Origin: Nitrospirota bacterium
GTDB taxonomy: Bacteria > Nitrospirota > 9FT-COMBO-42-15 > HDB-SIOI813
Assembly: GCA_020851375.1 (NCBI GenBank)
Contig: JADZCV010000025.1
Span: forward strand, 1-64,000
Length of the DNA stretch: 64,000 nt
Direction of reading: 5' to 3'
The notes under the pieces: generated by a model
Seen by the model: the letters and a program-made list of their open reading frames with translations, nothing else
Databases searched by the model: none
What the model was told of the DNA's origin: nothing
Position numbers and translations under genes: made by a program
Shown: positions 32,022 through 49,440 of the stretch, piece after piece
Numbering within the stretch: the first letter of the stretch is position 1
Layout: each line of letters begins with the position of its first letter

Positions 32022-32079
32022 CAACGTTACTATTGTAAATAATAAGGTTGATATATTCAACTTGTACGTGTATTTGTGC

Positions 32080-32108
32080 TTGACATTCTACAATCTGTAG
32101 AATATATT
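32080..32108 (+). promoter_or_regulatory. Promoter with palindromic operator filling the spacer
   Basis: TTGACA (32080-32085) and TATATT (32103-32108) are separated by exactly 17 bases, and those 17 bases are TTCTACAATCTGTAGAA, a perfect inverted repeat (7-base arms around ATC). The TACA...TGTA core resembles operators of BlaI/CopY-type repressors. The expected transcript start (about 32115) is only a few bases before the ATG at 32118, so the mRNA of the efflux operon may be nearly leaderless. Confidence 0.75.
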
Positions 32109-32117
32109 TACGCATAT

Positions 32118-33395
32118 ATGCCTGGGAAAAGTATATACAGGATATCTCTTTTTGTTATTTGCTATTTGCTGCCTTCTGCCTGTTGTCTTTTACTGCCGTT
32201 AGTTGTCGCTTCGCAGGATACCCGTACCCTTGGACAGGTCGCAGAGGAGGCCAAACTCAATAATCCGGAAATACAGGCGCTGAGGCGCAATGTAGAGGCG
32301 AAGAAGGCCCGGGTTCAGTCAGAAGGGATACTTGATGATCCTGTACTAAGGATTGAAATGATGGATTTGGATAAGGGGAACCTTTTTCCGGCTCCGGGAA
32401 ATGCCAGGGAGACACGGTATGAGTTTAGCCAGATGTTTCCTTTTCCAGGGAAACTTTCATTGGAGAAGCGTATTGCGCTTCTCAGAGTCATGACGTCAGA
32501 GGCTGAGGTGCGGTCTAAAGAAATTGAAATAGCCTCGAGGCTTAAAGAGGCATATTATGAATACCTGCTTATTATTCAGTCAATAAAGACCCTGGAGGAA
32601 ACAAAGGCAGTGCTCTCCAATATGGTCAGGATTGCGGAGACAAAGTATGCTACCGGTGAGGTGTCTCAGCAGGATGTTATCAAGGCACAGGTAGAGTTGA
32701 CCATGCTGTTAAATGAGATTATTGACCTCGGAGCAGAGAAGGATGTAGCAGAGGCAGGGATGAAGTCCATCCTGAACCTGCCGCAGGATGTTAATGGTTA
32801 TTTTGACCATGTGATATTGAGTGAGGGAAAAGCAGAGATACAGATGGATGAACTGGCAGGAAGGGCATTGGGAGTCAATCCGTATCTTGCAGTGATGAAA
32901 TATGAGGCAGATATACGTGAGCTTGAAACTGAACTAACGAAAAAGAATTATTATCCGGACTTTATGGTAGGGATAGCGCCTGTCCAGCGTGATGGGAGGT
33001 TTGACGCATGGGATGCCATGTTCCAGATGAATATACCTGTATGGAGGGCAAAGTATAAGAGTCAGGAAGAAGAAGGTGTAAAAATGACTGAAGCAATCAG
33101 ATCAGAAATCAGGGCAGAAGAAAACATGATTAAGGCCAGGGTTAAAGAAGGTGTGATAAAAACAGAGACAGCCGGCAGGATCAGGACACTCTATGAGACG
33201 AGTCTGCTTCCGCAGGCAGAGCTTTCCTTTGAGTCAACCCTTAAGAACTATCAGAGCGGCAGGGCGGATTTTATTATGCTGCTTGATTCTGAGAGATTAT
33301 TAAAGAAGACAAAGATAGATTACATTGGCGCTGTGATGACTTATTACAAGCGACTTGTGACATTGGAGAGTGTTGTGGGCGAGGAGTTTAATTAG
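32118..33395 (+). CDS. TolC-family outer-membrane efflux protein (CusC-like)
   Basis: 425 residues from the ATG at 32118. Signal peptide at residues 1-33 (hydrophobic core SLFVICYLLPSACCLLLPLV). Long heptad-rich helices such as LKEAYYEYLLIIQSIKTLEE and LPQAELSFESTLKNYQSGRA are the TolC-repeat pattern. It forms the outer-membrane channel for the RND pump encoded downstream. The frame opens at a TTG (32076), but this overlaps the promoter; the ATG places the signal peptide at the start. No ribosome-binding site is visible, consistent with a near-leaderless message. Confidence 0.9.
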   Translation: MPGKSIYRISLFVICYLLPSACCLLLPLVVASQDTRTLGQVAEEAKLNNPEIQALRRNVEAKKARVQSEGILDDPVLRIEMMDLDKGNLFPAPGNARETRYEFSQMFPFPGKLSLEKRIALLRVMTSEAEVRSKEIEIASRLKEAYYEYLLIIQSIKTLEETKAVLSNMVRIAETKYATGEVSQQDVIKAQVELTMLLNEIIDLGAEKDVAEAGMKSILNLPQDVNGYFDHVILSEGKAEIQMDELAGRALGVNPYLAVMKYEADIRELETELTKKNYYPDFMVGIAPVQRDGRFDAWDAMFQMNIPVWRAKYKSQEEEGVKMTEAIRSEIRAEENMIKARVKEGVIKTETAGRIRTLYETSLLPQAELSFESTLKNYQSGRADFIMLLDSERLLKKTKIDYIGAVMTYYKRLVTLESVVGEEFN

Positions 33396-33404
33396 GGGAG
33401 CGAG

Positions 33405-34712
33405 ATGAAGAAATCCAGAATATTAACAAGTCTCGTTACCGGAATAATTATAGGTATAGGAATTGGTATCCTTGCGATGGTTTTTCATAAAGGAAAAAGC
33501 GGGACAGTTGCTGTTAAGACAGAACAGCCAGAACGAAAAATACTTTTCTACCGTAATCCAATGAATCCTTCTGTTACGTCACCAAATCCAATGAAGGATG
33601 AAATGGGGATGGACTATGTTCCGGTTTATGCAGGTGAAGACGGGGAAAAGGGTGGAGAGGAAGAGCCGGGCACTGTCAGTATCAGTAATGAGAAGATTCA
33701 GAAGATTGGGGTCAGGACGGAAATCGTTAAGCGGCGTTCGCTGAAACGGATAATAAGGACGGTCGGGAGGGTAGACCCTGACGAAACAAAGGTCTTTAAC
33801 ATTAATGCCAAAGTCGGTGGCTGGGTGGAAAAGCTATACATCAACAGGACGGACCAGATGGTAGAGCACCATGACCCACTCCTGGAGCTATACAGCCCTG
33901 AGCTCGTCTCAGCACAGGAGGAATATCTTCTGGCATATAAGGAGATGGAGAAGGTGAAAGGGAGTCCATATCCTGAAGTGAAAAGCAGTGCTGAATCTAT
34001 CCTGAGTGCTGCAAGACAGCGTCTCAAATACTGGGATATTTCAGACGACCAGTTAAAGAGACTCGAAGAGGATGGCAGGATAACGCGGACAATGACAATC
34101 CGGGCCCCGGCACACGGGAGTGTTACGGAGAAGATGGTGGTTGAAGGGCAGAGGATTGAGGCAGGAGAGCAGCTATTTAAGATAATAGACCACACGTCTG
34201 TGTGGGTTTACGGCGAGTTATATGAGTATGAATTGCCGTTTGTGCGGCTTGGTCAGAAGGCAAAGATTACACCGTCGTATTCACCTGGCGAGCAATATAC
34301 GGCTGCTGTCGAACATATATATACGCACCTGGGGTCTGTTACCTATACACCTGAGGGCAGTGCGGAGATAAGGACAGCAAAGATAAGGTTTGCACTGCAA
34401 AACCCTCAACACAAGTTAAAGCTTGGAATGTATGTAAATGTTGAACTGGAGGTTGGTGCAGCATCCAATGCACTTGCTGTACCGGATTCAGCCCTGATTG
34501 ATACGGGGATCAGGCAGGTGGTGATTGTGGACAAGGGCGACGGCAGGTTTGAACCCCGTGAAGTAGAGATCGGGGCAAAGTCAGAGGGCTATTATGAGAT
34601 ACTGAAGGGAGTAACAGCAGGAGAGTCAGTGGTAACCTCGGCAAACTTCCTGATAGATTCGGAGAGCAACCTAAAAGCAGCGCTTTCAGGAATGGGAGGA
34701 CACCAGCATTGA
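33405..34712 (+). CDS. cusB: Cus-type RND efflux periplasmic adaptor (CusB-like)
   Basis: 435 residues. N-terminal membrane anchor (about 7-27), then a heavy-metal-binding motif (FYRNPMNPSVTSPNPMKDEM and GMDYVPVY, about 48-75), then the membrane-fusion-protein body: barrel-sandwich (VGGWVEKLYINRTDQMVEHH), helical hairpin and beta-barrel (TMTIRAPAHGSVTEKMVVEG). It bridges the outer-membrane channel and the inner-membrane pump and binds Cu(I)/Ag(I) through Met residues in related proteins. Starts 9 bases after the channel gene. Metal identity is inferred from the motif and the CusA neighbour. Confidence 0.93.
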   Translation: MKKSRILTSLVTGIIIGIGIGILAMVFHKGKSGTVAVKTEQPERKILFYRNPMNPSVTSPNPMKDEMGMDYVPVYAGEDGEKGGEEEPGTVSISNEKIQKIGVRTEIVKRRSLKRIIRTVGRVDPDETKVFNINAKVGGWVEKLYINRTDQMVEHHDPLLELYSPELVSAQEEYLLAYKEMEKVKGSPYPEVKSSAESILSAARQRLKYWDISDDQLKRLEEDGRITRTMTIRAPAHGSVTEKMVVEGQRIEAGEQLFKIIDHTSVWVYGELYEYELPFVRLGQKAKITPSYSPGEQYTAAVEHIYTHLGSVTYTPEGSAEIRTAKIRFALQNPQHKLKLGMYVNVELEVGAASNALAVPDSALIDTGIRQVVIVDKGDGRFEPREVEIGAKSEGYYEILKGVTAGESVVTSANFLIDSESNLKAALSGMGGHQH

Positions 34713-34723
34713 ATATCCGCGTT

Positions 34724-34840
34724 CAAATCCCCCCATGCCCCACTTTACTAAAGGGGGAAAGAAGTATAACCATCGCTTTATATAGAGATTAGTAATATCT
34801 CCCCCTTTGAAAAAGGGGGATGAAGGGGGATTTATATTGT
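34724..34840. repeat. Dispersed palindromic repeat B inside efflux operon
   Basis: AATCCCCCCATGCCCCACTT, CTTTACTAAAGGGGG, then CCCCCTTTGAAAAAGGGGG and AAGGGGGATT. It separates the adaptor and pump genes by about 140 bases within an otherwise tight operon and may affect processing or the expression ratio. Confidence 0.88.
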
Positions 34841-34855
34841 CCCTCAAATTTAGCC

Positions 34856-37800
34856 ATGCTAAGCAAAATCATCGAATTTTCCGTAAAGAATAAATTTATT
34901 ATTCTCCTCTTTACTGCCTTTGCAATCATGTGGGGTGTATGGACTTTATATAATACCCCGCTTGATGCAATCCCTGACCTCTCGGATGTCCAGGTCATAA
35001 TTTATACGGACTATCCTGGTCAGTCACCCCAGGTTGTTGAAGACCAGATAACTTATCCTCTGACGACTGCAATGCTTGCTGTACCAGGGAGCAAGGTTGT
35101 GAGGGGCTTTTCCTTCTTTGGTGTTTCCTTTATATATATAATTTTTGAAGACGGCACTGACTTATACTGGGCACGTTCACGGGTCCTGGAATACCTGAAT
35201 TTTGCCTCCGGAAAACTCCCGAAGGGAGTTACCCCTTCTCTTGGACCTGATGCAACAGGAGTCGGCTGGGTCTATGAGTACAGTATAGAGGGAAAGGGAT
35301 ATAACCTTGCAGAGCTCAGGAGCATCCAGGACTGGTATGTGCGATACCAGTTGACTAAGGTCCCTGGCGTCTCTGAAGTCGCATCCATCGGAGGCTTTGT
35401 AAAGCAGTACCAGGTGAATATAGACCCCAACAAACTCCTTACCTACAATATCTCTCTAAAAGATGTGGTGGACTCCATAAAGATGGGAAATGTTGATGTA
35501 GGCGGCAGGGTTGTTGAGCTGGCAGAGCGTGAGTATATGGTCAGGGGGCTTGGATATATAAAGAAGGTTCCTGACATTGAAAATATCGTTCTTAAGGTGG
35601 ATCAGAATGGAACGTCTATAAGGATTCAGGATATTGCACGTGTTGAGCTTGGACCTGATGAAAGGCGGGGTATCACAGAACGGAACGGTGATGGCGAGGT
35701 GGCAGGCGGCATTGTTGTAATGAGGTTTGGAGAGAATGCCCTTGATGTAATCAGGAATGTGAAAAAGAAGATTGAGGAGCTGAAGCCCGGACTGCCGCCG
35801 GGCGTTGAGATTGTCACCACTTACGACAGGAGTCATCTCATCCTCAGGGCTATTGATACCCTTAAGGAAAAACTGATTGAAGAGTTCATTGTTGTATCTT
35901 TAGTATGTGTCATATTCCTCCTCCACTTGAGGAGCGCCCTCGTAGCGATAATAATGCTTCCTATAGCCATACTCATTTCTTTTATAGTGATGTACTACCT
36001 TGGGATAAATGCGAATATCATGAGCCTTGGCGGCATTGCCATAGCTGTAGGGGCGATGATAGATGCTGCCATTGTAATGATTGAAAATGCACATAAACAC
36101 ATTGAGAAGAGTCATAAGTCAGGAGAAACAATCCAGGGGGAAAGAAGATGGGAAATCATTTTAACGGCAAGTAAAGAAGTCGGACCGCCTCTGTTTTTTT
36201 CACTTCTTATAATTACAGTCTCCTTTATCCCTGTCTTTACGCTTGAGGCTCAGGAAGGCCGCCTGTTTAAGCCGCTTGCGTATACCAAGACATTTGCCAT
36301 GGCTGCTGCTGCCCTGCTCTCTATTACTCTTGTGCCTGTCCTGATGGGATATTTTATCAGGGGACGCATCATGCCTGAGGAGAGGAACCCTGTCTCAAGG
36401 TTTTTGATCTACATATACAGGCCTGCTATAGACATTGTGCTGAGGTTTAAAAAGACGACGATCATTATTGCCGTTGTTATTCTTGCCATCAGCATTTACC
36501 CCTTCTCCAGGCTTGGTACTGAATTCATGCCTCCCCTTAATGAGGGGACACTCATGTACATGCCTGTGACTCTGCCAGGCATATCCGTGACAAAGGCCGC
36601 TGAGCTGATGCAGACGCAGGACAGGATTATAAAGAGTTTCCCTGAGGTTGAGTCTGTCTTTGGAAAGGCGGGGAGGGCAATGACTGCAACAGACCCTGCG
36701 CCGATGGAGATGTTTGAGACCATCATTAACCTGAAGCACGAAGGTGAGTGGCGTCCGGGCATGACTCAAAAGAAACTTATTGATGAGATGAATAAGGCAC
36801 TTGAGATGCCTGGAGTGACCAATGCCTGGACCATGCCCATCAAGGCAAGGACAGACATGCTCTCTACCGGGATTCGAACCCCTGTGGGTATTAAGGTCTT
36901 TGGAAAAGATTTGAATACCATAGAGCGCCTTGCAACAGAGATAGAGTCAGTTGTTAAGGCTCTTCCTGGCACAGCCAGTGTTTATGCAGAGAGGATCGTG
37001 GGGGGCTACTATGTAGACATTGATATCAAACGTGAAGAGGCTGCACGGTATGGGTTAAAGATAGAAGACATACAGCAGGTTATCATGTCAGCCATAGGCG
37101 GAGAGAACATCTCTACAACGGTTGAAGGGCGTGAAAGATACCCCATCAATGTAAGATACAAGAGAGAACTCAGGGACAGCGTGGACAAGATAGGCCGTGT
37201 CCTTGTACCGACTATGATGGGGCAGCATATCCCGCTGTCACAAGTAGCGGATATACGGTTAAGTAAAGGGGTGGCAGGAATCAAAACAGAGAATGCCCTC
37301 TTAAACACCTGGGTCTACGTAGATGTCAGTGACAGTGATATTGGCGGTTATGTTGCGAATGCAAAAAAGGCAGTGCTTGAGAAGGTAAAATTCCCGCCTG
37401 GTTATTACATAACATGGAGTGGGCAGTATGAGTATATGGCAAGGGTGTGGGAGCGGCTCAGATATATTATCCCCCTGACGTTGTTTATCATAATATTACT
37501 GCTCTATTTTAACTTCAGGTCATATACAGAGACGCTGATAATCCTCCTCGCAATACCATTCTCTTTGATAGGGGCGTCGTGGATTCTATTTCTGCTTGGC
37601 TACAACCTGAGTATCGCAGTCTGGGTGGGTTTCATAGCCCTTGCCGGAGTTGACGCAGAGACAGGGATAGTCATGCTGATTTACCTTAAGAATGCGTATG
37701 AAAGGCGAAAGGCTGAGGGCAATATGAATACTTATGATGACCTGCGCGAGGCTATTATCGAAGGGACAGTCTTGCGGGTGCGTCCAAAATTGATGACTGT

Positions 37801-37987
37801 AACAGCGATAATAGCCGGCCTCCTTCCTATTATGTGGGGTACCGGCGCCGGCTCTGATGTGATGAAGAGGATAGCTGCCCCGATGGTGGGGGGGATGGTT
37901 ACGTCAAGTGTTATGGAACTGCTTGTGCTTCCGGCAATCTATATAGTCTGGAAGGGGTGGTTACACAGAAGTAAAATTAAGGTATAA
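34856..37987 (+). CDS. cusA: CusA-type Cu(I)/Ag(I) RND efflux pump
   Basis: 1043 residues, full length for heavy-metal RND pumps, with 12 expected transmembrane helices and two large periplasmic loops. Family hallmarks: LDAIPDLSDVQVIIYTDYPG, PPLNEGTLMYMPVTLPGISV, and the methionine-rich AMTATDPAPMEM and TMPIKARTDMLSTGIRTPVG, which supply the Met residues that bind Cu/Ag. Proton-relay acidic residues lie in the GAMIDAAIVMIENAHK and GVDAETGIVMLIYLKNAY helices. I use the ATG at 34856 (MLSKIIEFSV), since the upstream ATG at 34820 lies within repeat B. Confidence 0.95.
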   Translation: MLSKIIEFSVKNKFIILLFTAFAIMWGVWTLYNTPLDAIPDLSDVQVIIYTDYPGQSPQVVEDQITYPLTTAMLAVPGSKVVRGFSFFGVSFIYIIFEDGTDLYWARSRVLEYLNFASGKLPKGVTPSLGPDATGVGWVYEYSIEGKGYNLAELRSIQDWYVRYQLTKVPGVSEVASIGGFVKQYQVNIDPNKLLTYNISLKDVVDSIKMGNVDVGGRVVELAEREYMVRGLGYIKKVPDIENIVLKVDQNGTSIRIQDIARVELGPDERRGITERNGDGEVAGGIVVMRFGENALDVIRNVKKKIEELKPGLPPGVEIVTTYDRSHLILRAIDTLKEKLIEEFIVVSLVCVIFLLHLRSALVAIIMLPIAILISFIVMYYLGINANIMSLGGIAIAVGAMIDAAIVMIENAHKHIEKSHKSGETIQGERRWEIILTASKEVGPPLFFSLLIITVSFIPVFTLEAQEGRLFKPLAYTKTFAMAAAALLSITLVPVLMGYFIRGRIMPEERNPVSRFLIYIYRPAIDIVLRFKKTTIIIAVVILAISIYPFSRLGTEFMPPLNEGTLMYMPVTLPGISVTKAAELMQTQDRIIKSFPEVESVFGKAGRAMTATDPAPMEMFETIINLKHEGEWRPGMTQKKLIDEMNKALEMPGVTNAWTMPIKARTDMLSTGIRTPVGIKVFGKDLNTIERLATEIESVVKALPGTASVYAERIVGGYYVDIDIKREEAARYGLKIEDIQQVIMSAIGGENISTTVEGRERYPINVRYKRELRDSVDKIGRVLVPTMMGQHIPLSQVADIRLSKGVAGIKTENALLNTWVYVDVSDSDIGGYVANAKKAVLEKVKFPPGYYITWSGQYEYMARVWERLRYIIPLTLFIIILLLYFNFRSYTETLIILLAIPFSLIGASWILFLLGYNLSIAVWVGFIALAGVDAETGIVMLIYLKNAYERRKAEGNMNTYDDLREAIIEGTVLRVRPKLMTVTAIIAGLLPIMWGTGAGSDVMKRIAAPMVGGMVTSSVMELLVLPAIYIVWKGWLHRSKIKV

Positions 37988-38526: not shown

Positions 38527-39651
38527 TCACTGTAATATGCCGATTGTAGTGACTGATACAGGGCCTGTACCTGCCTTATATGATCCTATAGGTGTAAGCG
38601 CACCATTGGATTCGATTAAATATGCGGAGACAGTGCTGGCATTAATACCGTCTCCGTAGTTGGCTGTATAAACGAAACTGCCTGAGGGGTCAACTGTGAC
38701 AGAGTAAGGATTGGCCCCTGTGTTAAACGGAGAATGTGTAACTTCTGTAAGTGCGCCAGTTGTGGTGTTAATTGAATAGGCAGAAATATTGTCAGAACCA
38801 AAATTAGCCACATAAACAATCTTGCCAAATGGATCAACTGTAACAGATTTGGGGCTCGTCCCGGCTGTATATGGTGAGGTAGAAAGTGGCGTAAGCGACC
38901 CATCGGGGTTGATGGTGTAGGCTGACACGTTATCAGAATCCTGATTAGCCGCATAGACGAATTTGCCTGAGGGGTCAACAGTGACCGAGTAAGGGTTAAA
39001 GCCTGCCTCAAATGGTGATCCTACATCTGAAAGCGCCCCATTTGTGCCTATTCTATAGGCGGAAATAGTGTTTGTGGACCAATTTGCCACATATACGAAC
39101 CTTCCAAGGGGGTCAACTGCAACGCTCTCCGGAGCTCCATTTGGCTGAGCAGGGAAAGGTTGGCCTGCTACAGGTGTGAGTGCCCCGTCGTCGGTACCTA
39201 TCGCAAATGCTGAAATGTCGCTGGAGTCCCTGTTAGCTACATATGCGAACATGCCTGAGGGGTCAATTGCCACAGATTCAGAGGTTAAACCTGCTGTAAA
39301 TGGTGACCCTGTCACATCTGTAAGCGCTCCATTGATGCCTATTGAATAGGCATTGACAGTGCCATTCCAGTTTGCAACATACACAAACCTTCCCAGTGGG
39401 TCACTTGCTATGGATTCCGGAAAGCCGGCTGCTACAACAGGGTCGCCTACAGTCAGGAGCGTCCCGTCGTCAGCGATAGAAAAGCCATAGACATCGCCTG
39501 ATTCATGATTTGCCACATACAGGTACTTTTGTGTGTATGCCGGCAGCGTGGGGGTTGAGCTACTTTTTTGATTCTCGCTGCACTATGTCAAAGAGACAAT
39601 CAAAAACGTTAAAAGTACAATAATTAGTCCATTGTAGCCCTTATTTTTCAT
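38527..39651 (-). pseudogene. YVTN beta-propeller lipoprotein with in-frame TAG
   Basis: From ATG at 39651 the frame reads MKNKGYNGLIIVLLTFLIVS, L, T, then TAG at codon 23 (39585-39583), then CSENQKSSSTPTLPA and the whole propeller to the TGA at 38527. The TAG sits where Gly, Ala or Ser would precede the lipobox cysteine, so the intact gene would be a lipoprotein. The propeller has about seven YVTN/6-phosphogluconolactonase-like repeats (ANPYSVTVDPSGSFVYTANY). An internal ATG at 39516 would give a 329-residue protein without a signal. Probably extracytoplasmic; function unknown. Confidence 0.8.
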
Positions 39652-39835: not shown

Positions 39836-39940
39836 CTTTGCTAAGAGCAAACCTTCTGAAAGGAAGGGACGCAGAGCAACGGGGCTTAGGGTTTATCCGG
39901 TGTCCCCGGAATAAACCTATGTTCGCCGGGCCGCCAAAGG
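39836..39940 (+). promoter_or_regulatory. GEMM-I-type cyclic dinucleotide riboswitch aptamer
   Basis: The conserved core is visible: AGAGCAAACC, a short stem with GAAA tetraloop (TTCTGAAAGGAAG), GGGACGCAGAGC, then CGGGGCTTAGG and a second hairpin (GGGTTTATCC with GGAATAAACC). This matches the GEMM-I class that binds c-di-GMP or, in the Ib subtype, 3',3'-cGAMP. An A lies where I would align the discriminating base of the cGAMP subtype, but I cannot verify the alignment. A terminator follows, then the membrane protein and giant cytochrome genes, so the ligand probably controls their transcription. Confidence 0.85.
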
Positions 39941-39967
39941 TAGATGAGACTTTGGGCGGCTTTTTTT
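39930..39967 (+). terminator. Intrinsic terminator, riboswitch expression platform
   Basis: GCCGCCAAAG and CTTTGGGCGGC form a stem around GTAGATGAGA, followed by TTTTTTT. It begins within or just after the 3' edge of the GEMM aptamer (GTTCGCCGGGCC), so aptamer P1 and terminator pairing could compete. It lies 36 bases before the first gene of the cytochrome operon. Confidence 0.85.
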
Positions 39968-40002
39968 ATGGCAAATGCAACTTGCAGTATGGATTCTAAT
40001 TA

Positions 40003-40908
40003 ATGAGCAGCGCGAGAGAAGGCAAAAGTGAGAGTTATATATTTGAACTTATACTTATCATTATAGTAATCATAAGCATATGTGTCCTGGGCTATGAAAG
40101 CTATACACAAGAATATATGCCTGATTACAGCATACTAAGCTATCTTCACAGCCTGGGTTATCTTAAGAGATACCCTGTGATCTATGAACCGAGTAAAGGG
40201 ATATGGCACCCTATTGGCTGGATTGGTTCCGGCATGATGGTCGTGATGATGCTCTACAGTGTAAGAAAGAGGGCGGGGTTTATGCGGTCTTATGGTTCTT
40301 TGCGGCACTGGCTTTCAGCTCACATGTTTCTTGGAATAATGGGGCCGGTCCTCGTGACTTTTCATACGACTTTCAAGTTCAACGGGATTATTGCCACGAG
40401 TTTCTGGTCAATGATAATTACGATGGTATTCGGGATACTTGGCAGGTACATATATATCCAGATCCCCCGCAGCATTGCAGGGGCTGAACTAAGGGTTCAG
40501 GACATTGAGCGTATGATTCAGACGATTGATTCCCGTCTTGGTGAAGTCTCAAAGGGAATAAACATTTCTGAGTTGTGCAAGGCATTTGATTTTAGTGAAA
40601 GGCGACATGAGGATGCAAGTTTAATTAAATCGCTCCTTTCTATGGTTCGGGATGACATAGTGATATCATACCGCTTGCACCAACTGGATAGTGTACTGAG
40701 AAAGACTCACCGGCAGGTCAGGAAAAAGATAGATTTTCTTATCAAGAAAAAGGCGGCGCTTACGAGAAGAAGGATTTACCTCGCTACATCTCACAGGATA
40801 CTCCATTACTGGCACATTTTTCATGTGCCGTTGGCCATTGTAATGTTTTTGATCATGATCCTGCATGTGTTTGTATATTATCTGTTCAGGACTACCCACG
40901 TAGTGTAA
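40003..40908 (+). CDS. Four-helix membrane protein, likely haem b electron carrier
   Basis: 301 residues. Hydrophobic helices at about 14-35, 68-87, 105-145 and 270-295. Paired histidines in HWLSAHMFLGIMGPVLVTFH (third helix) and in the last helix region (HYWHIFHVP, ILHVFVYY) are arranged like haem b ligands. A long cytoplasmic or periplasmic helical stretch (about 155-255) separates them. It starts the operon behind the riboswitch and ends 9 bases before the giant cytochrome gene, so it probably passes quinol electrons to it. No cytochrome-b signature was matched exactly. Confidence 0.72.
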   Translation: MSSAREGKSESYIFELILIIIVIISICVLGYESYTQEYMPDYSILSYLHSLGYLKRYPVIYEPSKGIWHPIGWIGSGMMVVMMLYSVRKRAGFMRSYGSLRHWLSAHMFLGIMGPVLVTFHTTFKFNGIIATSFWSMIITMVFGILGRYIYIQIPRSIAGAELRVQDIERMIQTIDSRLGEVSKGINISELCKAFDFSERRHEDASLIKSLLSMVRDDIVISYRLHQLDSVLRKTHRQVRKKIDFLIKKKAALTRRRIYLATSHRILHYWHIFHVPLAIVMFLIMILHVFVYYLFRTTHVV

Positions 40909-40917
40909 ATAACTTTT

Positions 40918-43900
40918 ATGATGAAAAAATTCTTATTAATTTTCTTTGCATTGCTTCTTTGCTCGGAAGCACTGGCGCAGGAAGGCGGCGTTGGTTCTTT
41001 AATAAGCCCGGGAGAGCTGACATCCCCCCATGCAAAATATGAGGGAATCAGCAACTGCACACAGTGTCACTCCCTTGGCGGCGGTATGCCTGACAGCAAG
41101 TGTCTGGACTGCCACGACAAGCTCGCGGAAAGAATAAAAAACAAGCAGGGCGTACATGCCACATACACGGATGCATGTATTAAGTGCCATACTGACCACA
41201 AGGGAAAAGGTTTTAAGATTATATCACTTGAGAAGGATAAGTTTGACCACGGCAAGACAGATTATCCCCTCGTGGATAAACACTCAAAGGTTGACTGTAA
41301 TAAGTGTCATAAAAAGGGTGATCCGTATTCCGGAATCTCCAGCGAATGTTTATCCTGTCACAAAGATCCGCATAAGGAAAAACTTGGAAAAGACTGTGAG
41401 CGCTGCCATAACATCAAGGGGTGGAAGGATCTTGTAAAGTTTAATCATGACAGAGAATCAAAATATTCACTGACCGGGAAACACATTGAGGTCAAGTGTG
41501 AGAAATGCCATTTAGACAGCAAAAATTATAAAGTAGAAAAGTTTGAAGAGTGTCTTACATGCCACAAGGACCCGCATAAGGATAAACCGAAGTGTAAGGA
41601 GTGCCACACAACAGAAAGCTGGAAAAAGGTCAGGACAGACCATGACAAGACAAAATACCCCCTTGTTGACAAGCATATAGATGTAAAGTGCGACAAGTGC
41701 CACAAGAACAGCAAGCTCACAGGCATACCATTTAAGACATGCGAGTCATCAGCCTGCCATAACGACCCGCACAAGACCCAGTTTGAAGGGCAGAAGTGCG
41801 ATGAGTGTCATAATATTAAGGGTTGGAAGCCATCACTCTTCGAGCACAATGCGCCAAAATATACCGGCTATAAGCTTGAGAAGAAGCACATTGAGGTGAA
41901 ATGTGAAAAGTGTCATGTCAAGGGCCGGTATAAACCGCTGGATTCGAAGACCTGCAATACATCAGATTGTCACAAGGATGTCCACAAAGGCCAGTTCAGG
42001 AATCAGAAGTGCGAGGCCTGTCATACTGTTAAGGGATGGGGACCGTCATTATTCGAACATAATGCTGCAGAATACAAGGGATACAAATTAGAAGGAAAAC
42101 ATGTTGACGTTGAATGCAAGAAGTGTCATGTGCAGGGCAAATACAGACCGCTTAATTATAAGAGTTGTGATACCTCGGATTGTCATAAGGATACCCACAA
42201 GGGACAGTTTAAGGAGAAGAAGTGCGAGTCATGCCATATACTGAAAGGCTGGAAGCCGTCCACATTTGAACATAATGCGCCGGATTACAGTGGTTACAGG
42301 CTGGATGGAAAGCACGTGAAGACTCCATGTGAAAAATGTCATGTGGACGGGAAGTATAAACCTCTGTCTGACCGCTGCTATGACTGCCATGAAAAGGATG
42401 ATACCCACAAGAAGGAGCTGGGGAATAATTGTGCCAAGTGTCACAATACTGCAGACTGGAAGAAGTATGCGCTGGACCACAACAAACAGACTAAATTCCC
42501 GCTTATAGGAAAGCATAAGAGCACAGAATGTGAGAAGTGTCACAAGGACAAGAAGTATTCCACAAAGGCTGAAAAGTGTGTTGACTGCCATAAGGATATT
42601 CACAAAGGGAAGTTTAAGGAAGAATGCAGTTCGTGTCATACACAGAATGACTGGTTCCCCAGGAAATTTGACCATAAGAAAGAATCAGGTCTTGAGTTAA
42701 AGGGTGTTCACAATGACATAGACTGCACAAACTGCCACAAGACTAAAGGAGAATACAAGGAGGCTAATCGCTATTGTGATCAGTGCCACCAGGATCCGCA
42801 CTTCAATCAGTTCGGCAGGATAAAATGCAGTCAGTGTCACAGTGAGAGGACATGGAATCCGACAGAGTTTGATCACAGCAAGACAGGATATCCCTTAATA
42901 GGCGGGCACCGGTCAGCAGAATGTCAGGACTGTCACAGGAGCAGGTTATACAGGAACACGCCGGTAGCATGCATAAGTTGTCACCAAAGCCTTTATGATT
43001 CTGCCCCTGATCATGTTGCAAAGGGTTATAGCAGGAACTGTACAGATTGTCATAAGGGCAACTTTTCTTCATGGTCTTTCAAACATACGACTGCATCAAA
43101 GAATTGTTCAAGCTGTCATATAAGCAGCAGGCCATTAAGTCATACCACGAGTGTCGCAAAGAATACGGCAACGTGCGAGAATTGTCACAATTCGACCACT
43201 TCATGGTCGTCGCATACTCATCCTGCTGTCAGTAATAACTGCAACAGCTGTCACATTAATGACAAGCCGCAAAGTCATGCAAATAATCCGGCAGCTTATC
43301 CAACTACATGTGAGAGTTGCCATACTTCAACGGCTTCCTGGTCATCCCGTAAACATACTGCGGCTACTACAGGCTGTTCTGTATGTCATGTCACATACAG
43401 CACGCCGGCAAAAACGTCGAATCATAATGCCAATAACTGGATTACGTGTGAGAATTGCCATGTATTTCCGAACTGGTCATTCGTCCATACTTCTTCTACA
43501 ACGGGTTGTTCTACCTGTCACTTGACATACAGTACACCTGCGAAACCTGCAAGCCATACGACTTATAACTGGACTACCTGTGAGACCTGTCACAAATCAA
43601 AGGTATCATGGACTTTCGTGCATACGACCGTTACGTCCGGGTGTGCAAGCTGTCACGCAACATCCAGTGTTCCTGCGAAACCTGCAAGCCATACAACGTA
43701 TAACTGGACTACATGTGAGACCTGTCACAAGTCAACGGCATCATGGGCCTTTACGCATACGACTGCAACGACTGGGTGTGCAAGCTGTCATGCAGCATAC
43801 AGTACGCCTGTGAAACCTGCAGGCCATGCAACGAACAACTGGACTACCTGTGAGACATGCCATAAATCCAAAACATCATGGGTCTTTACGCATACGACTG

Positions 43901-45834
43901 CAACGACCGGTTGCTCAAGCTGTCATGCAGCATACAGTACACCTGCGAAGCCTGCAAACCATGCAACGAACAACTGGACTACCTGCGAGACGTGCCATAA
44001 GTCAAACACGACATGGGCATTTACACACACGACTGTAGCGACTGGTTGTTCAAGCTGTCATGCAACATACAGCACGCCTGCGAAGCCTGCAAGCCATGCG
44101 ACAAACAACTGGACTACCTGCGAGACATGTCACAAGTCAACGGCAACATGGACCTTTGCACACACAACGCTTACGACCGGATGTTCAGGCTGTCATGCAA
44201 CATACAGCACGCCTGCGAAACCTGCAAACCATGCAACAAACAACTGGACTACCTGCGAGATATGTCACAAGTCAAACACTACATGGGCATTTACGCATAC
44301 GACTGCAACGACCGGATGTTCAAGCTGTCATGCGACATACAGTATGCCTGTAAAGCCATCGAATCACACGACTAATAAGTGGTCTACCTGCGAGACATGC
44401 CACAAGTCCATAACCTCATGGGCATTCGCACATCCTACTGCGGCGACAGGTTGCTCAACCTGTCATATGACATACAGCACTCCTGCAAAGCCATCGAATC
44501 ATGCAACAAACAACTGGACTACATGTGAGACATGCCACAAGTCCATAACTTCATGGGCATTCGCACACCCTACTGCGGCGACAGGTTGCTCAACCTGTCA
44601 TATGACATACAGCACGCCTGCAAAGCCATCGAATCATGCAACTAACAACTGGACTACGTGTGAGACATGCCACAAGTCCATAACTTCATGGGCATTCGCA
44701 CACCCTGCTGCGGCGACAGGTTGCTCAACCTGTCATATGACATACAGCACTCCTGCAAAGCCATCGAATCATGCAACTAACAACTGGACTACATGTGAGA
44801 CATGCCACAAGTCCATAACTTCATGGGCATTCGCACACCCTGCTGCGACCACAGGTTGCTCAACCTGTCATATGACATACAGCACTCCTGCAAAGCCATC
44901 GACCCATGCAACTAACAACTGGACTACGTGTGAGACATGCCACAAGTCCATAACTTCATGGGCATTTACGCATCCGGCTTCAACGACGGGCTGTTCAAGT
45001 TGTCACGCATCATACAGTACACCGGTAAAACCAGCTGATCATACTACTAATAAATGGACAACCTGTGAGACATGTCACAAATCCATTACTTCATGGGCAT
45101 TTACGCATCCGGCTTCAACGACCGGCTGCGCAACGTGCCATGCGACATACAGTACGCCTGCGAAGCCTGCGAGCCATACGACAAACAACTGGACTACCTG
45201 CGAGACATGTCATAAGTCAACGACCTTGTGGACATTCAGCCATGGGACTATATCTACAGGCTGTGCGACCTGTCATGCAACTTACAGCACACCGGCAAAA
45301 CCGGCGAACCATACTACATATAACTGGACAACCTGTGAGATATGTCACAAGTCCATTACTTCATGGGCATTTACGCATCCGGCTTCAACGACCGGCTGTG
45401 CAACGTGCCATGCGACATACAGCACGCCTGTAAAGCCTGCAAGCCATAAAACAAACAACTGGACCACTTGTGAAACATGCCACAAATCTACCACTGCATG
45501 GACTTTTACTCACGGTACATCAACCACCAACTGTACACTTTGTCATGCAACATACAGTACACCTGCAAAACCTGCCAGCCATACAATTAACAACTGGACT
45601 ACATGTCAGAACTGTCATAAGTCAACATCAACGTGGGCATTTACGCATCCTGCAACCACCTTCCCGCTTAATCATGAAGGGACTAACCCGACAAATTGCG
45701 CAGCTTGTCACCCTGCCGGGGCTTATAACAACAAAGGTGGGTGTATTGAATGTCATTCAGCGAGAGGGGTGAAGGTTCACAAGACAACACTTAACTCTGG
45801 ATGTCTGGGTTGTCACCCTGATGGCAGAAAATAA
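40918..45834 (+). CDS. Giant multiheme c-type cytochrome (about 71 haem motifs)
   Basis: 1638 residues with signal peptide MMKKFLLIFFALLLCSEALA. By hand count there are 68 CXXCH and 3 CX4CH motifs (CESSACH, CNTSDCH, CDTSDCH). The N-terminal half has Lys-rich spacers (CHKDPHK, GWKPSLFEHN). The C-terminal half is about 16 tandem 45-residue units, each with CETCHKS...W.F.H and CSTCH.TYSTPAKP. Haems would be attached in the periplasm. No membrane anchor is seen after the signal, so it may be periplasmic or exported as an electron wire. The beta-barrel gene follows after two bases. Confidence 0.95.
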   Translation: MMKKFLLIFFALLLCSEALAQEGGVGSLISPGELTSPHAKYEGISNCTQCHSLGGGMPDSKCLDCHDKLAERIKNKQGVHATYTDACIKCHTDHKGKGFKIISLEKDKFDHGKTDYPLVDKHSKVDCNKCHKKGDPYSGISSECLSCHKDPHKEKLGKDCERCHNIKGWKDLVKFNHDRESKYSLTGKHIEVKCEKCHLDSKNYKVEKFEECLTCHKDPHKDKPKCKECHTTESWKKVRTDHDKTKYPLVDKHIDVKCDKCHKNSKLTGIPFKTCESSACHNDPHKTQFEGQKCDECHNIKGWKPSLFEHNAPKYTGYKLEKKHIEVKCEKCHVKGRYKPLDSKTCNTSDCHKDVHKGQFRNQKCEACHTVKGWGPSLFEHNAAEYKGYKLEGKHVDVECKKCHVQGKYRPLNYKSCDTSDCHKDTHKGQFKEKKCESCHILKGWKPSTFEHNAPDYSGYRLDGKHVKTPCEKCHVDGKYKPLSDRCYDCHEKDDTHKKELGNNCAKCHNTADWKKYALDHNKQTKFPLIGKHKSTECEKCHKDKKYSTKAEKCVDCHKDIHKGKFKEECSSCHTQNDWFPRKFDHKKESGLELKGVHNDIDCTNCHKTKGEYKEANRYCDQCHQDPHFNQFGRIKCSQCHSERTWNPTEFDHSKTGYPLIGGHRSAECQDCHRSRLYRNTPVACISCHQSLYDSAPDHVAKGYSRNCTDCHKGNFSSWSFKHTTASKNCSSCHISSRPLSHTTSVAKNTATCENCHNSTTSWSSHTHPAVSNNCNSCHINDKPQSHANNPAAYPTTCESCHTSTASWSSRKHTAATTGCSVCHVTYSTPAKTSNHNANNWITCENCHVFPNWSFVHTSSTTGCSTCHLTYSTPAKPASHTTYNWTTCETCHKSKVSWTFVHTTVTSGCASCHATSSVPAKPASHTTYNWTTCETCHKSTASWAFTHTTATTGCASCHAAYSTPVKPAGHATNNWTTCETCHKSKTSWVFTHTTATTGCSSCHAAYSTPAKPANHATNNWTTCETCHKSNTTWAFTHTTVATGCSSCHATYSTPAKPASHATNNWTTCETCHKSTATWTFAHTTLTTGCSGCHATYSTPAKPANHATNNWTTCEICHKSNTTWAFTHTTATTGCSSCHATYSMPVKPSNHTTNKWSTCETCHKSITSWAFAHPTAATGCSTCHMTYSTPAKPSNHATNNWTTCETCHKSITSWAFAHPTAATGCSTCHMTYSTPAKPSNHATNNWTTCETCHKSITSWAFAHPAAATGCSTCHMTYSTPAKPSNHATNNWTTCETCHKSITSWAFAHPAATTGCSTCHMTYSTPAKPSTHATNNWTTCETCHKSITSWAFTHPASTTGCSSCHASYSTPVKPADHTTNKWTTCETCHKSITSWAFTHPASTTGCATCHATYSTPAKPASHTTNNWTTCETCHKSTTLWTFSHGTISTGCATCHATYSTPAKPANHTTYNWTTCEICHKSITSWAFTHPASTTGCATCHATYSTPVKPASHKTNNWTTCETCHKSTTAWTFTHGTSTTNCTLCHATYSTPAKPASHTINNWTTCQNCHKSTSTWAFTHPATTFPLNHEGTNPTNCAACHPAGAYNNKGGCIECHSARGVKVHKTTLNSGCLGCHPDGRK
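43434..45640 (+). repeat. Tandem 135-base repeat array in cytochrome gene
   Basis: About 16 units of 135 bases (45 codons), each encoding two CXXCH motifs. Units between about 44390 and 44960 are almost identical at the DNA level, with changes mostly in one or two bases, while the outer units are more diverged. This pattern suggests recent unequal crossover in the middle of the array. Confidence 0.93.
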
Positions 45835-45836
45835 TA

Positions 45837-47084
45837 ATGAATAGATTATTGCCTATTGTTATTTACATAATTGTCTTTCTGTTTGTTATTCTGCCTCAGT
45901 CGCATGAGGTGTTCTGTGCAGAATATCATGGTCTCATTTCAATGGATGATTACTACTCCAATGAGTCCGGTTCATCGTATGATTACCACCTGCTGACGAC
46001 CCGTATAAGGCTGGATGCAGACAAGTTGAACAAGGCGGGCAGTCTTTCATTACACTTCGAGGGCCGGGAAAGAAATAATCTCGGTGACCAGGACTACTAC
46101 AGCAGCACAAGTAATTCACGTATAGACACCTTGAATATTGAGTACAATAGAAAGAAGACTGACATTGTAGCGGGCAGATTGTGGCCAAAAGAATTATATA
46201 CTGAAAGGGTAGACGGCCTGAACATACTCAGGCACGGCCCGGACAGCGGTATTGGCGTTTTTGCCGGAATAAAACCTGATCCCTACACCCAGGAATTTAA
46301 TTCAAACTACACGGCTGCCGGAGTATACTATTACCGTCACAAGAAAAGCAATTCCGAGAATCTTGCCTTTATACACAATGGATTCAAGGGAAAAACCGAC
46401 AGACAATACATGTATGGACAGGCGTCATATTATCCGACAGAGAAGATTAGTTTGTACGGAACCATCACAGCGGATATAGATCAAATATCAGGCGGGCTTG
46501 ATCTTACAAATGCCATTGTTGAAATATCCTGGCGACCGGATTACCGCAAGGGGTTTGCCATAGGCTACAGTAATTTTCATGCCTTTCGCCTTTATGAGTC
46601 AATGGATATTGCTATAGATACGGGTACGCAAAATTCATATTATATGAGGGGAGATTACCGTTTAAGTGACAAATATTCCATTTACGGCAGATATGATCTG
46701 CAGACTCTTAATTATAACTCACTGGATGCAGAACTTAGAACTTCGAATACGGTTCAGATTGGTGTCAGGAACGACAATCTGCTGAATAGTCAGATTTCAA
46801 TGGATTTTAACACAACGATAGCAGACAGTTTCGGCTCTGGTTATGGAACGTATGAACTGCAGTTCAGCAGGTTCTTTAAAGATACTCTTCAATTGACACT
46901 GCACAGCGCCTACACGCAGAGTACCAGTGACATCATTGATTATAGTGATAATATTTTTGTCTATGACCTGTCAGTCTATTATTCCTTCAGCAGGATGTGG
47001 ACCGCATCCGTATCATATCAGGGACGGAGCGCTAAAGATTATGAAACAGAGAACATCAGTACAAGGGTTACGTACAGGTTTTAG
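45837..47084 (+). CDS. Outer-membrane beta-barrel of porin-cytochrome type
   Basis: 415 residues. Signal peptide at about 1-27 (VIYIIVFLFVILPQSHEVFC). The rest alternates hydrophobic and polar residues in short strands rich in Tyr and Ser and ends in phenylalanine (STRVTYRF), as outer-membrane barrels do. No specific family is recognised. Its position 2 bases after the giant cytochrome gene makes it the likely barrel component of a porin-cytochrome conduit, comparable to MtrB or OmbB in role, but this is inference; sequence similarity to those was not seen. Confidence 0.8.
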   Translation: MNRLLPIVIYIIVFLFVILPQSHEVFCAEYHGLISMDDYYSNESGSSYDYHLLTTRIRLDADKLNKAGSLSLHFEGRERNNLGDQDYYSSTSNSRIDTLNIEYNRKKTDIVAGRLWPKELYTERVDGLNILRHGPDSGIGVFAGIKPDPYTQEFNSNYTAAGVYYYRHKKSNSENLAFIHNGFKGKTDRQYMYGQASYYPTEKISLYGTITADIDQISGGLDLTNAIVEISWRPDYRKGFAIGYSNFHAFRLYESMDIAIDTGTQNSYYMRGDYRLSDKYSIYGRYDLQTLNYNSLDAELRTSNTVQIGVRNDNLLNSQISMDFNTTIADSFGSGYGTYELQFSRFFKDTLQLTLHSAYTQSTSDIIDYSDNIFVYDLSVYYSFSRMWTASVSYQGRSAKDYETENISTRVTYRF

Positions 47085-47113
47085 GTAAAGAAGGTTTATA
47101 ACAGGAGAAGCTG

Positions 47114-48415
47114 ATGCTGACGTCAATTATTTCACCGTTGGTAATAGTTGTTGTTGTGGGAATATATGTAGCTCACCAAAGCAAACGGAGCCGGAAAAAT
47201 ATCAGGAAAATAGGCAAGGCCAGGGAATATGGTACACACGAGCCGGTACATATTCACCCCTTTGTTGATCCCGGAGTATGTATAGGCAGCGGGGCGTGTG
47301 TTATGGCATGTCCTGAAAAGGATATACTGGGTCTTGTAAATGGACGTTCAAGCCTTATCAATTCCTCACACTGTATAGGACATGGTGCATGTGCCGCAGC
47401 CTGTCCGGTTGGTGCAATCAGACTTGTATTTGGCACTGAGACGCGCGGAGTGGATATCCCGTATGTAACACCTAAATTTGAGACTAATATGAAAGGGATC
47501 TTCATCGTTGGCGAGCTTGGGGGGATGGGGCTGATCAGGAATGCCGTAACGCAGGGCCGTGAGGTAATTGAATATATGTCCTGCATGCTTCGCAGCGGGG
47601 AGAAGAAGCGGGATAATGTACTTGATGTTTTGATTGTTGGGGCAGGTCCCGCCGGCATATCTGCATCCCTGGCGGCCTTAAAGCATAAGCTTAAATTCGT
47701 TACTGTTGAGCAGGAGGATATCGGCGGTACAGTTTTTCAATATCCCCGGCATAAGATTGTTATGACCGCGCCGATGGAACTGCCCATGCATGGAAAGGTC
47801 AAAGTACGGGAAACAACCAAGGAGGCCCTTCTTGAGCTCTGGATGCAGGTAATTCAGAAGACAGGCCTTAAAATCAGGACAAAGGAAAAGATGACAGATA
47901 TAAAGCAGGATGATGACGGTTACAAGATCTTTACAACTAAAGGTGAGTATCTGTCAAGAACTATTGTCCTGGCTATCGGGCGTCGCGGCACACCTCGAAA
48001 ACTCGCGGTTCCAGGCGAGAATCTCCCCAAGGTGTCATACCGGCTGCTGGATGCTGAACAGCATAAGAACCAGCATTTACTTGTGGTAGGTGGCGGTGAC
48101 AGTGCGGTAGAGGCCGCTATGGCCCTTTCTGATCAGCCTGGCAACAAAGTCATCCTGTCGTACAGGGGTGAGGCATTTGGACGTATCAAGCCGATGAACA
48201 AAGAACGTTTGGACCAGAGGGTGGGGAAGAAATCCATTGAAGTAATCCTGAATTCCAACGTCAAAGAGATTAGTGAGAAAATGATTAAAATCGCTGTTAA
48301 AGACGATATTAAAGAGATACGTAATGACTACGTATATATATTTGCAGGCGGTGAGCTCCCCAATGAATTCCTGAGCAAGATCGGCGTACGTATTGACAAG
48401 AGATTCGGCACATAG
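47114..48415 (+). CDS. Membrane-anchored iron-sulphur flavoprotein (TrxR-like)
   Basis: 433 residues. N-terminal membrane helix (about 3-21), two ferredoxin-like motifs and a thioredoxin-reductase-type FAD/NAD(P) domain (GAGPAGISASLAALKH; GGGDSAVEAAMALSD). Both cluster motifs have three cysteines, not four: CIGSGACVMACP and CIGHGACAAACP carry Ser and His where the second Cys normally is. It could transfer electrons between NAD(P)H and the membrane or cytochrome chain. Start set by AGGAGAAGCTG before the ATG. Located 29 bases after the beta-barrel gene. Confidence 0.86.
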   Translation: MLTSIISPLVIVVVVGIYVAHQSKRSRKNIRKIGKAREYGTHEPVHIHPFVDPGVCIGSGACVMACPEKDILGLVNGRSSLINSSHCIGHGACAAACPVGAIRLVFGTETRGVDIPYVTPKFETNMKGIFIVGELGGMGLIRNAVTQGREVIEYMSCMLRSGEKKRDNVLDVLIVGAGPAGISASLAALKHKLKFVTVEQEDIGGTVFQYPRHKIVMTAPMELPMHGKVKVRETTKEALLELWMQVIQKTGLKIRTKEKMTDIKQDDDGYKIFTTKGEYLSRTIVLAIGRRGTPRKLAVPGENLPKVSYRLLDAEQHKNQHLLVVGGGDSAVEAAMALSDQPGNKVILSYRGEAFGRIKPMNKERLDQRVGKKSIEVILNSNVKEISEKMIKIAVKDDIKEIRNDYVYIFAGGELPNEFLSKIGVRIDKRFGT

Positions 48416-48465
48416 TTCTGAATAAATATGTTCCCTTATTTATTCTTTGATGTATCATAACAGGC

Positions 48466-49440
48466 ATGCCACAGTATATTGATCTATTGAAATCCGGTGA
48501 ATTGAATAAACGCTCTGAGGCGCTGGCAGTGAAGCTCAGAGACTGCACATTGTGCCCGCGTGAATGCAGGGTTGACAGGACAAAGGACAAACATGGTTTT
48601 TGCCGAACAGGCTATCATCCTGTTGTGGCAAGCTACTGCGCTCATTATGGCGAGGAGCCGGTACTTTCAGGAACGATGGGCTCCGGGACTATATTTTTCG
48701 GATATTGCAATATGAGCTGCGTCTTCTGTCAGAACCATCAGATTTCTCAACCGGTAAAGTCATTAAAGAGCGAGGCTGTAAGTTTCGAACGTCTTGCAGA
48801 CATTATGCTGGAATTGCAGGATATGGGCTGCCACAATATCAATTTTGTCTCCCCTTCTCATGTCAGTGCACAGATAGTTAAGTCGCTTGAGATAGCAGCG
48901 CTAAAGGGACTTAACATCCCTCTTGTCTATAATAGTAATGGATATGAATCGGTTGAAACACTGAAACTGCTTGATGGGATTATAGACATATATCTTCCGG
49001 ACTTAAAATACGGTAATAACAATACAGCCTATTATTTTTCAAAGGTAGTTGATTATGTGGTTTATTCGCGGGCGGCAATCCTTGAGATGAAGAGGCAGGT
49101 TGGAGACCTTGAGGTTGACCATGAGGGAATAGCAATCAGGGGATTGATAATAAGGCATCTTGTGTTGCCCAATGATCTTTCAGGCAGTGAGGACTGTTTC
49201 AGATTTATAAGCCAGGAGGTTGGAAAACTTACATTTATCAGCTCTATGTCACAGTTCTTTCCTGCACACAGGGCATACAAACATCCCCTTTTGTCAAGAC
49301 CTATCCGCGAGAGCGAATATGAAAAGGTACTCGCATGGCTTGAAAAGTACGGGCTTGATAATGGTTGGATGCAGGCCTATTCAAGCCGTGACTACTACTG
49401 TCCGGACTTTGAGAAGGACCAGCCATTTGCGGAAAATTGA
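48466..49440 (+). CDS. PflA/AmrS-like radical SAM protein
   Basis: 324 residues. The radical SAM cluster motif CNMSCVFCQN (CxxxCxxC, about 83-92) is preceded by an N-terminal Cys set, CTLCPRECRVDRTKDKHGFC. This layout is found in PflA-like proteins and the AmrS family. The [4Fe-4S] cluster cleaves S-adenosylmethionine to start a radical reaction; the target is unknown. It follows the flavoprotein by about 50 bases, so it may be in the same transcript or be an independent housekeeping gene. Confidence 0.88.
   Translation: MPQYIDLLKSGELNKRSEALAVKLRDCTLCPRECRVDRTKDKHGFCRTGYHPVVASYCAHYGEEPVLSGTMGSGTIFFGYCNMSCVFCQNHQISQPVKSLKSEAVSFERLADIMLELQDMGCHNINFVSPSHVSAQIVKSLEIAALKGLNIPLVYNSNGYESVETLKLLDGIIDIYLPDLKYGNNNTAYYFSKVVDYVVYSRAAILEMKRQVGDLEVDHEGIAIRGLIIRHLVLPNDLSGSEDCFRFISQEVGKLTFISSMSQFFPAHRAYKHPLLSRPIRESEYEKVLAWLEKYGLDNGWMQAYSSRDYYCPDFEKDQPFAEN

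Follow-up and report, generated by a model that had tools for sequence, protein, structure and literature searches.

Organization of the locus

The window analyzed in this study, a stretch of 64,000 nucleotides, belongs to contig 25 of the genome of a groundwater bacterium of the phylum Nitrospirota (2.5 Mb, 98% complete). It contains a riboswitch followed by five genes, here called A to E, whose products most likely carry electrons from one side of the cell envelope to the other by way of a single giant protein with 71 haems. The analyses were based on the sequences of metagenome-assembled genomes (MAGs). The five open reading frames (ORFs), which encode proteins of 301, 1638, 415, 433, and 324 amino acids, are located on one strand with spacings of 9, 2, 29, and 50 bp, and they are preceded by a GEMM-I aptamer and an intrinsic terminator (Table 1). 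An earlier note, made from the letters of the window alone, had described a GEMM-I-type riboswitch with a terminator, followed within short gaps by a membrane protein with haem-b-like histidines, a cytochrome with about 71 haem-binding motifs, an outer-membrane beta-barrel, a membrane-anchored iron-sulphur flavoprotein, and a radical SAM enzyme, and these assignments were borne out by the analyses below. Matches above the Pfam cut-off were obtained for cytochrome c7/c3 repeats in B, for 4Fe-4S and Pyr_redox domains in D, and for the radical SAM domain in E (PF04055, 4e-9), and the Pfam scan of A and C gave nothing reaching the cut-off.

Table 1. Coordinates of the riboswitch and of the genes A to E within the window
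Feature	Position	Strand	Evidence
GEMM-I (c-di-GMP-I) aptamer with A at the Vc2-G20 position (GEMM-Ib/cGAMP-like)	39836..39938	+	RF01051 match and alignment
Intrinsic terminator; 5' arm GCCGCCAAAG doubles as 3' strand of aptamer P1 (ON-switch layout)	39930..39967	+	Sequence, hairpin energy
A: predicted five-transmembrane di-haem b inner-membrane protein, WX3HX13H twice, without CXXCH	40003..40908	+	
B: predicted secreted cytochrome of 1638 amino acids, 71 haems; Sec signal peptide by inspection	40918..45834	+	
B N-half, residues 21-700: charged, 29 haem motifs; corresponds to periplasmic-type MHC1, a protein of its own in split clusters	40978..43017	+	
B C-half, residues 701-1638: Thr/Ser/Ala-rich, 42 haem motifs; equivalent of the separate extracellular-type MHC2	43018..45831	+	
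Tandem repeats within the B C-half, 135 bp (45 amino acids, 2 haems)	43525..45648	+	15.7 copies, 81% matches
C: predicted 22-strand outer-membrane beta-barrel with signal peptide	45837..47084	+	
D: membrane-anchored protein with two 4Fe-4S clusters and a circularly permuted YpdA/TrxR-type FAD/NAD(P)H oxidoreductase	47114..48415	+	
E: radical SAM protein, probable passenger	48466..49440	+	PF04055

A fused multihaem cytochrome

The haem-binding motifs of protein B comprise 68 CXXCH and 3 CX4CH motifs, 29 of which are found in the N-half and 42 in the C-half. When the amino acid composition was analyzed in 100-residue windows, the first ~690 residues were mostly 33-39% charged with 16-20% Thr/Ser/Ala/Gly, and the residues after ~690 were 6-12% charged with 41-55% Thr/Ser/Ala/Gly. 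This break in composition was also found in the other complete fused homologues of the B clade. Six other Nitrospirota clusters encode two separate cytochromes, one charged (MHC1) and one Thr/Ser/Ala-rich (MHC2). With all six of these split pairs, the N-half of B scored 248-478 bits against MHC1 versus 102-147 bits against MHC2, and the C-half scored MHC2 above MHC1. In one locus (L027) the two MHC genes are neighbors, arranged head to tail, and their order is that of the two halves in B. On the tree of protein A, the fused and split states are separated by one change with a branch support of 92/99, although the L028 and Sphingobium branches of this tree are long and the Sphingobium cluster fits the MHC1/MHC2 plan less clearly. 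Judged by composition and homology, B is a fusion of a periplasmic-type and an extracellular-type cytochrome. It has been reported that the extracellular cytochromes of the PCC3 conduit family are repetitive and rich in Thr/Ser/Ala/Gly (PMC5566968), and that the periplasmic PCC3 cytochromes of Gallionellaceae contain 21, 24, or 27 haems (PMC10734462), numbers to which the 29 haems of the N-half of B are near.

Five independently assembled family members contain 71, 40, 40, 49, and 55 motifs, and this range of 40-71 among close relatives fits the 15.7-copy repeat of the C-half. The bipartite plan was found in all five of them, and an assembly artefact was rejected for B on these grounds. The haem count itself was rejected as a novelty, since an 85-haem PCC3 cytochrome was previously reported (PMC5566968). 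Against the DmsE decahaem model, which represents the MtrA/DmsE family, B scored 122 bits, under the NCBIfam cut-off of 192.2. B is presumably exported. For protein C, the AlphaFold2 model obtained from 15 homologues consists of a signal helix and 22 strands with a mean pLDDT of 87. Sequence searches of the PDB with the A profile, the C profile, and B gave no match.

Conservation of the operon

No close counterpart to this gene set was recognized in the earlier note, a statement that did not hold. Within the family, a protein search gave matches with 60-100% identity in six genomes, one of which is the genome analyzed here, and it also found more distant Nitrospirota. The A-B-C-D order was found in other genera of the family, in two of which E follows D, and the relatives with the operon are Nitrospirae MAGs, for instance RIFCSPLOW2_12_42_9 and nzgw272, several of them from groundwater by name. 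The set is also kept in many deltaproteobacterial MAGs, in which A is followed, where the contig continues, by B-type and C-type genes and usually by D. Because the genes are found in this order, with about 40-76% identity, in further genera and phyla as well, their co-occurrence is not due to chance. In addition, A is accompanied by D and two cytochromes in FCB-group genomes, and the Emticicia oligotrophica plasmid pEMTOL02 encodes CcsA, A, D, two cytochromes, and a barrel-like protein. A total of 35 loci with A relatives was found in the named genome collection, and an A relative (E below 1e-8) was present in 55 of the 296 Nitrospirota genomes drawn.

Only in L022/L034 and L023/L036, which are close relatives, is the radical SAM gene E found after D. 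Because it is missing outside the close family, it was ruled out as part of the conduit core and is probably a passenger. In Nitrospinota (L037-L039), an A homologue with 54-55% identity was found with no cytochrome gene adjoining within the stretch examined.

Inner-membrane protein A and flavoprotein D

Protein A contains two exact WX3HX13H motifs (W103/H107/H121 and W270/H274/H288), whose four histidines are invariant across 31 homologues, and its helix pattern is compatible with five transmembrane (TM) segments. The inner-membrane proteins of PCC3 and PCC4 are likewise about 300 amino acids long with five TM segments and the WX3HX13H motif, which in PCC3 is located on TM3 and TM5, and their resemblance to di-haem cytochromes b and to ferric reductase domains (FRD) has been pointed out (He et al. 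2017, PMC5566968). A itself gave no Pfam FRD match. At the site of the SGXXG sequence, a TM4 feature of PCC3, A has FGILG, and SGIVG or SGIIG is found in more distant homologues. Since the TM2-TM3 loop and the large TM4-TM5 loop are rich in Lys/Arg, the positive-inside rule would place H107 and H274 in the half of the membrane that faces the cytoplasm, and H121 and H288 in the half that faces the periplasm. In another Nitrospirota family (L030, L031), A carries an Ala/Pro-rich N-terminal extension of ~450 amino acids.

Protein D has an N-terminal TM anchor, two 4Fe-4S clusters, and Pyr_redox domains. Residues 172-432 of D match residues 6-274 of the YpdA-type reductase 7a76_A, and residues 278-297 of 7a76_A align to residues 117-136 of D, the second piece being weak alone. 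In the same manner, the Sphingobium homologue matches D 182-427 with its residues 1-278 and D 115-156 with its residues 286-327 (E 3e-8). Because the order of the segments is swapped relative to both 7a76_A and the Sphingobium homologue, D is considered a circular permutant of the YpdA/TrxR fold, in which the C-terminal FAD motif is located before the N-terminal one.

The riboswitch and a candidate signal synthase

The aptamer upstream of A is the sole Rfam match within the window and matched RF01051 (c-di-GMP-I) with 60.2 bits versus a gathering score of 35 (E 2.8e-9). The terminator hairpin has a predicted energy of -16.1 kcal/mol and is followed by a T-run. In every operon-associated copy the 3' strand of P1 overlaps the 5' arm of the terminator, and therefore P1 stabilized by a ligand should block termination. 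GEMM-I RNAs were also found 5' of A in L020, L021, L050, and L051 and 5' of a B-type MHC gene in L026. All of these aptamers are of the A20 type, and the operon aptamer likewise carries A at the Vc2-G20 equivalent (model position 11 in the alignment). The genome contains seven GEMM-I RNAs, five with A20 and two with G20, and the copy nearest in sequence to the operon aptamer (on C28) is located 5' of a gene for a secreted fibronectin-type protein without haem motifs. Three GEMM-I RNAs are found on one 16-kb contig (L088, G000:C31, 1-12000), each 5' of secreted-protein genes, and at least two of these secreted proteins share a C-terminal motif. The bases at position 20 of these three RNAs are A, G, and A, so that both aptamer types occur in one genome.

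Among the 13 GGDEF matches of the genome, the residue diagnostic of Hypr enzymes (Ser348 in GacA, PMC6456294) is Asp in ten and Ser in one, and the other two matches are degenerate. The Ser-type enzyme is a GAF-GGDEF protein encoded on the same contig about 21 kb past the operon (G000:C25:70770-71846; L080/L087), with the sequence GHLIGS, an intact GGDEF, and Leu at -44 replacing the cross-dimer Arg. A Ser orthologue was found in all nine other family genomes examined (10/10 including the own genome), and a Ser-type protein was the best match in 12 of another 14 genomes, with the genomes of L050 and L051 among these 12. This protein is therefore a putative synthase of cyclic GMP-AMP (cGAMP). 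Since the RNA carries A in place of Vc2 G20 and a Hypr-type GGDEF is encoded in the genome, 3',3'-cGAMP appears to be a likelier ligand of the operon aptamer than cyclic di-GMP (c-di-GMP).

Flanking genes

Immediately 5' of the operon, a heavy-metal RND efflux triplet of the CusA/CzcA family (439, 435, and 1055 amino acids) is encoded at 32076-37987 of the + strand. The corresponding operons of L034/L022 and L036/L023 likewise have orthologues of the triplet at their 5' side, with 55-81% identity, and thus efflux and conduit genes are syntenic in three genera. An ORF for a lactonase-type beta-propeller (38527-39516, - strand) points away from the riboswitch, and no homologue of it was found in the relatives' loci that were checked.

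Interpretation and alternatives

We consider the operon to encode a cyclic-dinucleotide-controlled, PCC3-related extracellular electron-transfer conduit with fused periplasmic and extracellular cytochromes, an interpretation to which we assign a probability of about 0.6. The operon is called PCC3-related rather than PCC3 because one fused chain is found and not two cytochromes. According to this model, cGAMP produced by the Hypr GGDEF enzyme would stabilize P1, by which the terminator would be blocked and the operon turned on. D would act at the cytoplasmic face, where it would shuttle electrons between NAD(P)H (or ferredoxin) and the pair of b haems in A. Through A they would cross the inner membrane and reach the half of B with 29 haems. 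This half would bridge the periplasm, and B would continue through or at the barrel C, with the 42-haem repeat half ending outside, where electrons could be exported to minerals or partners, or taken up. Several observations weigh against parts of this interpretation. The riboswitch is located 5' of A in only three of six family loci and in two deltaproteobacterial loci, and thus it is not obligatory, and the A20/G20 base has been described as contributing to selectivity without acting as a strict filter (PMC9262584). In addition, D is absent beside A in three loci with enough flank (L024, L042, and L043), and a Foldseek search of the PDB with the A model, which is without haem and has a pLDDT of 78, gave no fold match (nothing below E 0.6).

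It could be that the riboswitch senses c-di-GMP instead of cGAMP, since the Rfam family itself is c-di-GMP-I, c-di-GMP is surely made by a cell in which 10 of 13 GGDEF domains have the canonical Asp, and two other GEMM RNAs of the genome retain G20. However, A20 was found in every operon-front copy and a conserved Hypr-type GGDEF in each such genome, which makes sensing of c-di-GMP improbable. The electron donor is a further point at which the models differ. The transfer of electrons from quinol to the outside through a porin-cytochrome conduit had been proposed in the earlier note; the conduit is supported by the conservation of the genes and by the likeness to PCC3, and the quinol donor is disfavored by the presence of a D-type protein near A in 20 of 23 informative loci. 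If A were a quinol oxidase or quinone reductase of the conduit, D would be an unrelated or accessory cytoplasmic reductase. This would agree with the quinone-active cytochrome b proposed for the A family by He et al. (PMC5566968), with the four-His di-haem arrangement common to quinone-active cytochromes b, and with the three loci mentioned above in which D is missing. We nevertheless regard it as unlikely, because D or a D-like flavo-iron-sulphur protein is found with A in Nitrospirota, deltaproteobacteria, FCB bacteria, Emticicia, and Sphingobium, where the neighbor of A is a D-like protein with cyclic-nucleotide domains, and because the companion of A in Acetobacter, beside a 7-haem cytochrome, is a non-homologous FAD/NAD/2Fe-2S reductase. 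Since A is recurrently paired with D or with another flavo-iron-sulphur reductase, NAD(P)H or ferredoxin would fit A better than quinol as the redox partner.

Export of B, with its 71 haems, by way of a barrel is hypothetical, and the Foldseek matches of C are general porins, with no cytochrome-conduit barrel among the top 50. These points would be in line with B staying inside the outer membrane as a periplasmic haem capacitor, or forming a secreted filament, and with C being an ordinary porin. We consider this quite improbable, because the B and C genes are 2 bp apart and, throughout the fused clade and across several phyla, remain neighbors on every contig that extends far enough, and because C is large and the composition of the B C-half resembles that of the reported extracellular PCC3 cytochromes. 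For the conduit, the direction of electron flow is also to be considered. The operon might serve electron uptake, in which the oxidation of metals, minerals, or partner-derived electrons would feed NAD(P)H or respiration, as PCC3 has been found in and proposed for Fe(II) oxidizers (PMC5566968, PMC10734462) and the hosts found here are mostly groundwater MAGs. In contrast, the cGAMP-controlled genes of Geobacter serve Fe(III) oxide reduction (PMC6456294), and inward electron flow via A would oppose the membrane potential, and thus a role in uptake rather than export is doubtful. A search for dsrA, which bears on the metabolism of the host, gave matches below the cut-off only, and so no canonical DsrA.

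A more specific form of the conduit model can be put forward tentatively, as a possibility that we rate below even odds. B would be a single-polypeptide wire of ~71 haems reaching from the inner membrane through the 22-strand barrel to the outside, fed by D and A as an NADPH-oxidase-like pair and not by the quinone pool, and switched by cGAMP outside the groups in which the cGAMP pathway has been studied. If so, one gene product would replace a multi-protein relay over the periplasm and the outer membrane, and envelope crossing by a long haem chain would become directly testable. Furthermore, the connection of cGAMP with extracellular electron transfer, for which Geobacter is the best-known case, would be extended to Nitrospirota, and a cytoplasmic NAD(P)H entry point would be proposed for the PCC3 conduit family.

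Comparison with known systems

The general logic of a periplasmic cytochrome, a barrel, and an outside cytochrome is shared with MtrCAB and MtoAB. The MtrB barrel has 26 strands. C differs in its 22 strands and in having no PDB sequence match, and B differs in scoring under the DmsE cut-off (122 versus 192 bits). By analogy, D and A may resemble the FRD and NADPH oxidase systems, in which a cytoplasmic FAD/NAD(P)H module passes electrons to two stacked b haems across the membrane. Unlike in those systems, the dehydrogenase here is a separate protein, of a permuted TrxR/YpdA type with two 4Fe-4S clusters, and the acceptor would be a c-haem wire. The quinol oxidases CymA, CbcL, and ImcH are inner-membrane multihaem c-cytochromes (PMC6295460), a class to which A, without CXXCH, does not belong.

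The control of the operon is similar to that by GEMM-Ib and GacA in Geobacter, in which a GEMM-I RNA and a terminator are also located 5' of cytochrome genes, and the candidate synthase shares with GacA the Ser at the Ser348 position, GGDEF rather than GGEEF, and a non-Arg cross-dimer residue (PMC6456294). It differs in the phylum, in the enzyme, which is GAF-GGDEF here and Rec-GGDEF in Geobacter, and in the target, which is a PCC3-like conduit here and OmcAHG or PgcA there.

The closest likeness is to PCC3 (PMC5566968), including that of Gallionellaceae (PMC10734462), which also combines an inner-membrane protein of ~300 amino acids with two WX3HX13H motifs, a porin, and very large repeat-rich cytochromes; the Sphingobium inner-membrane protein matches A with E 1e-13. 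Our literature search, made without subscription papers and preprints, found no paper on PCC3 in Nitrospirota or on fused PCC3 cytochromes. The separate periplasmic and extracellular cytochromes of PCC3 are replaced here by one polypeptide with 29 + 42 haems, and C, with 22 strands, is smaller than most reported PCC3 porins, which have up to 42. The present operon also differs in its riboswitch and its FAD/NAD(P)H partner D. Thus, the fusion of the cytochromes, the cGAMP-type control, and the permuted flavoprotein partner are new with respect to PCC3, whose published hosts are Alpha-, Beta-, and Gammaproteobacteria, whereas the hosts found here are Nitrospirota and deltaproteobacteria.

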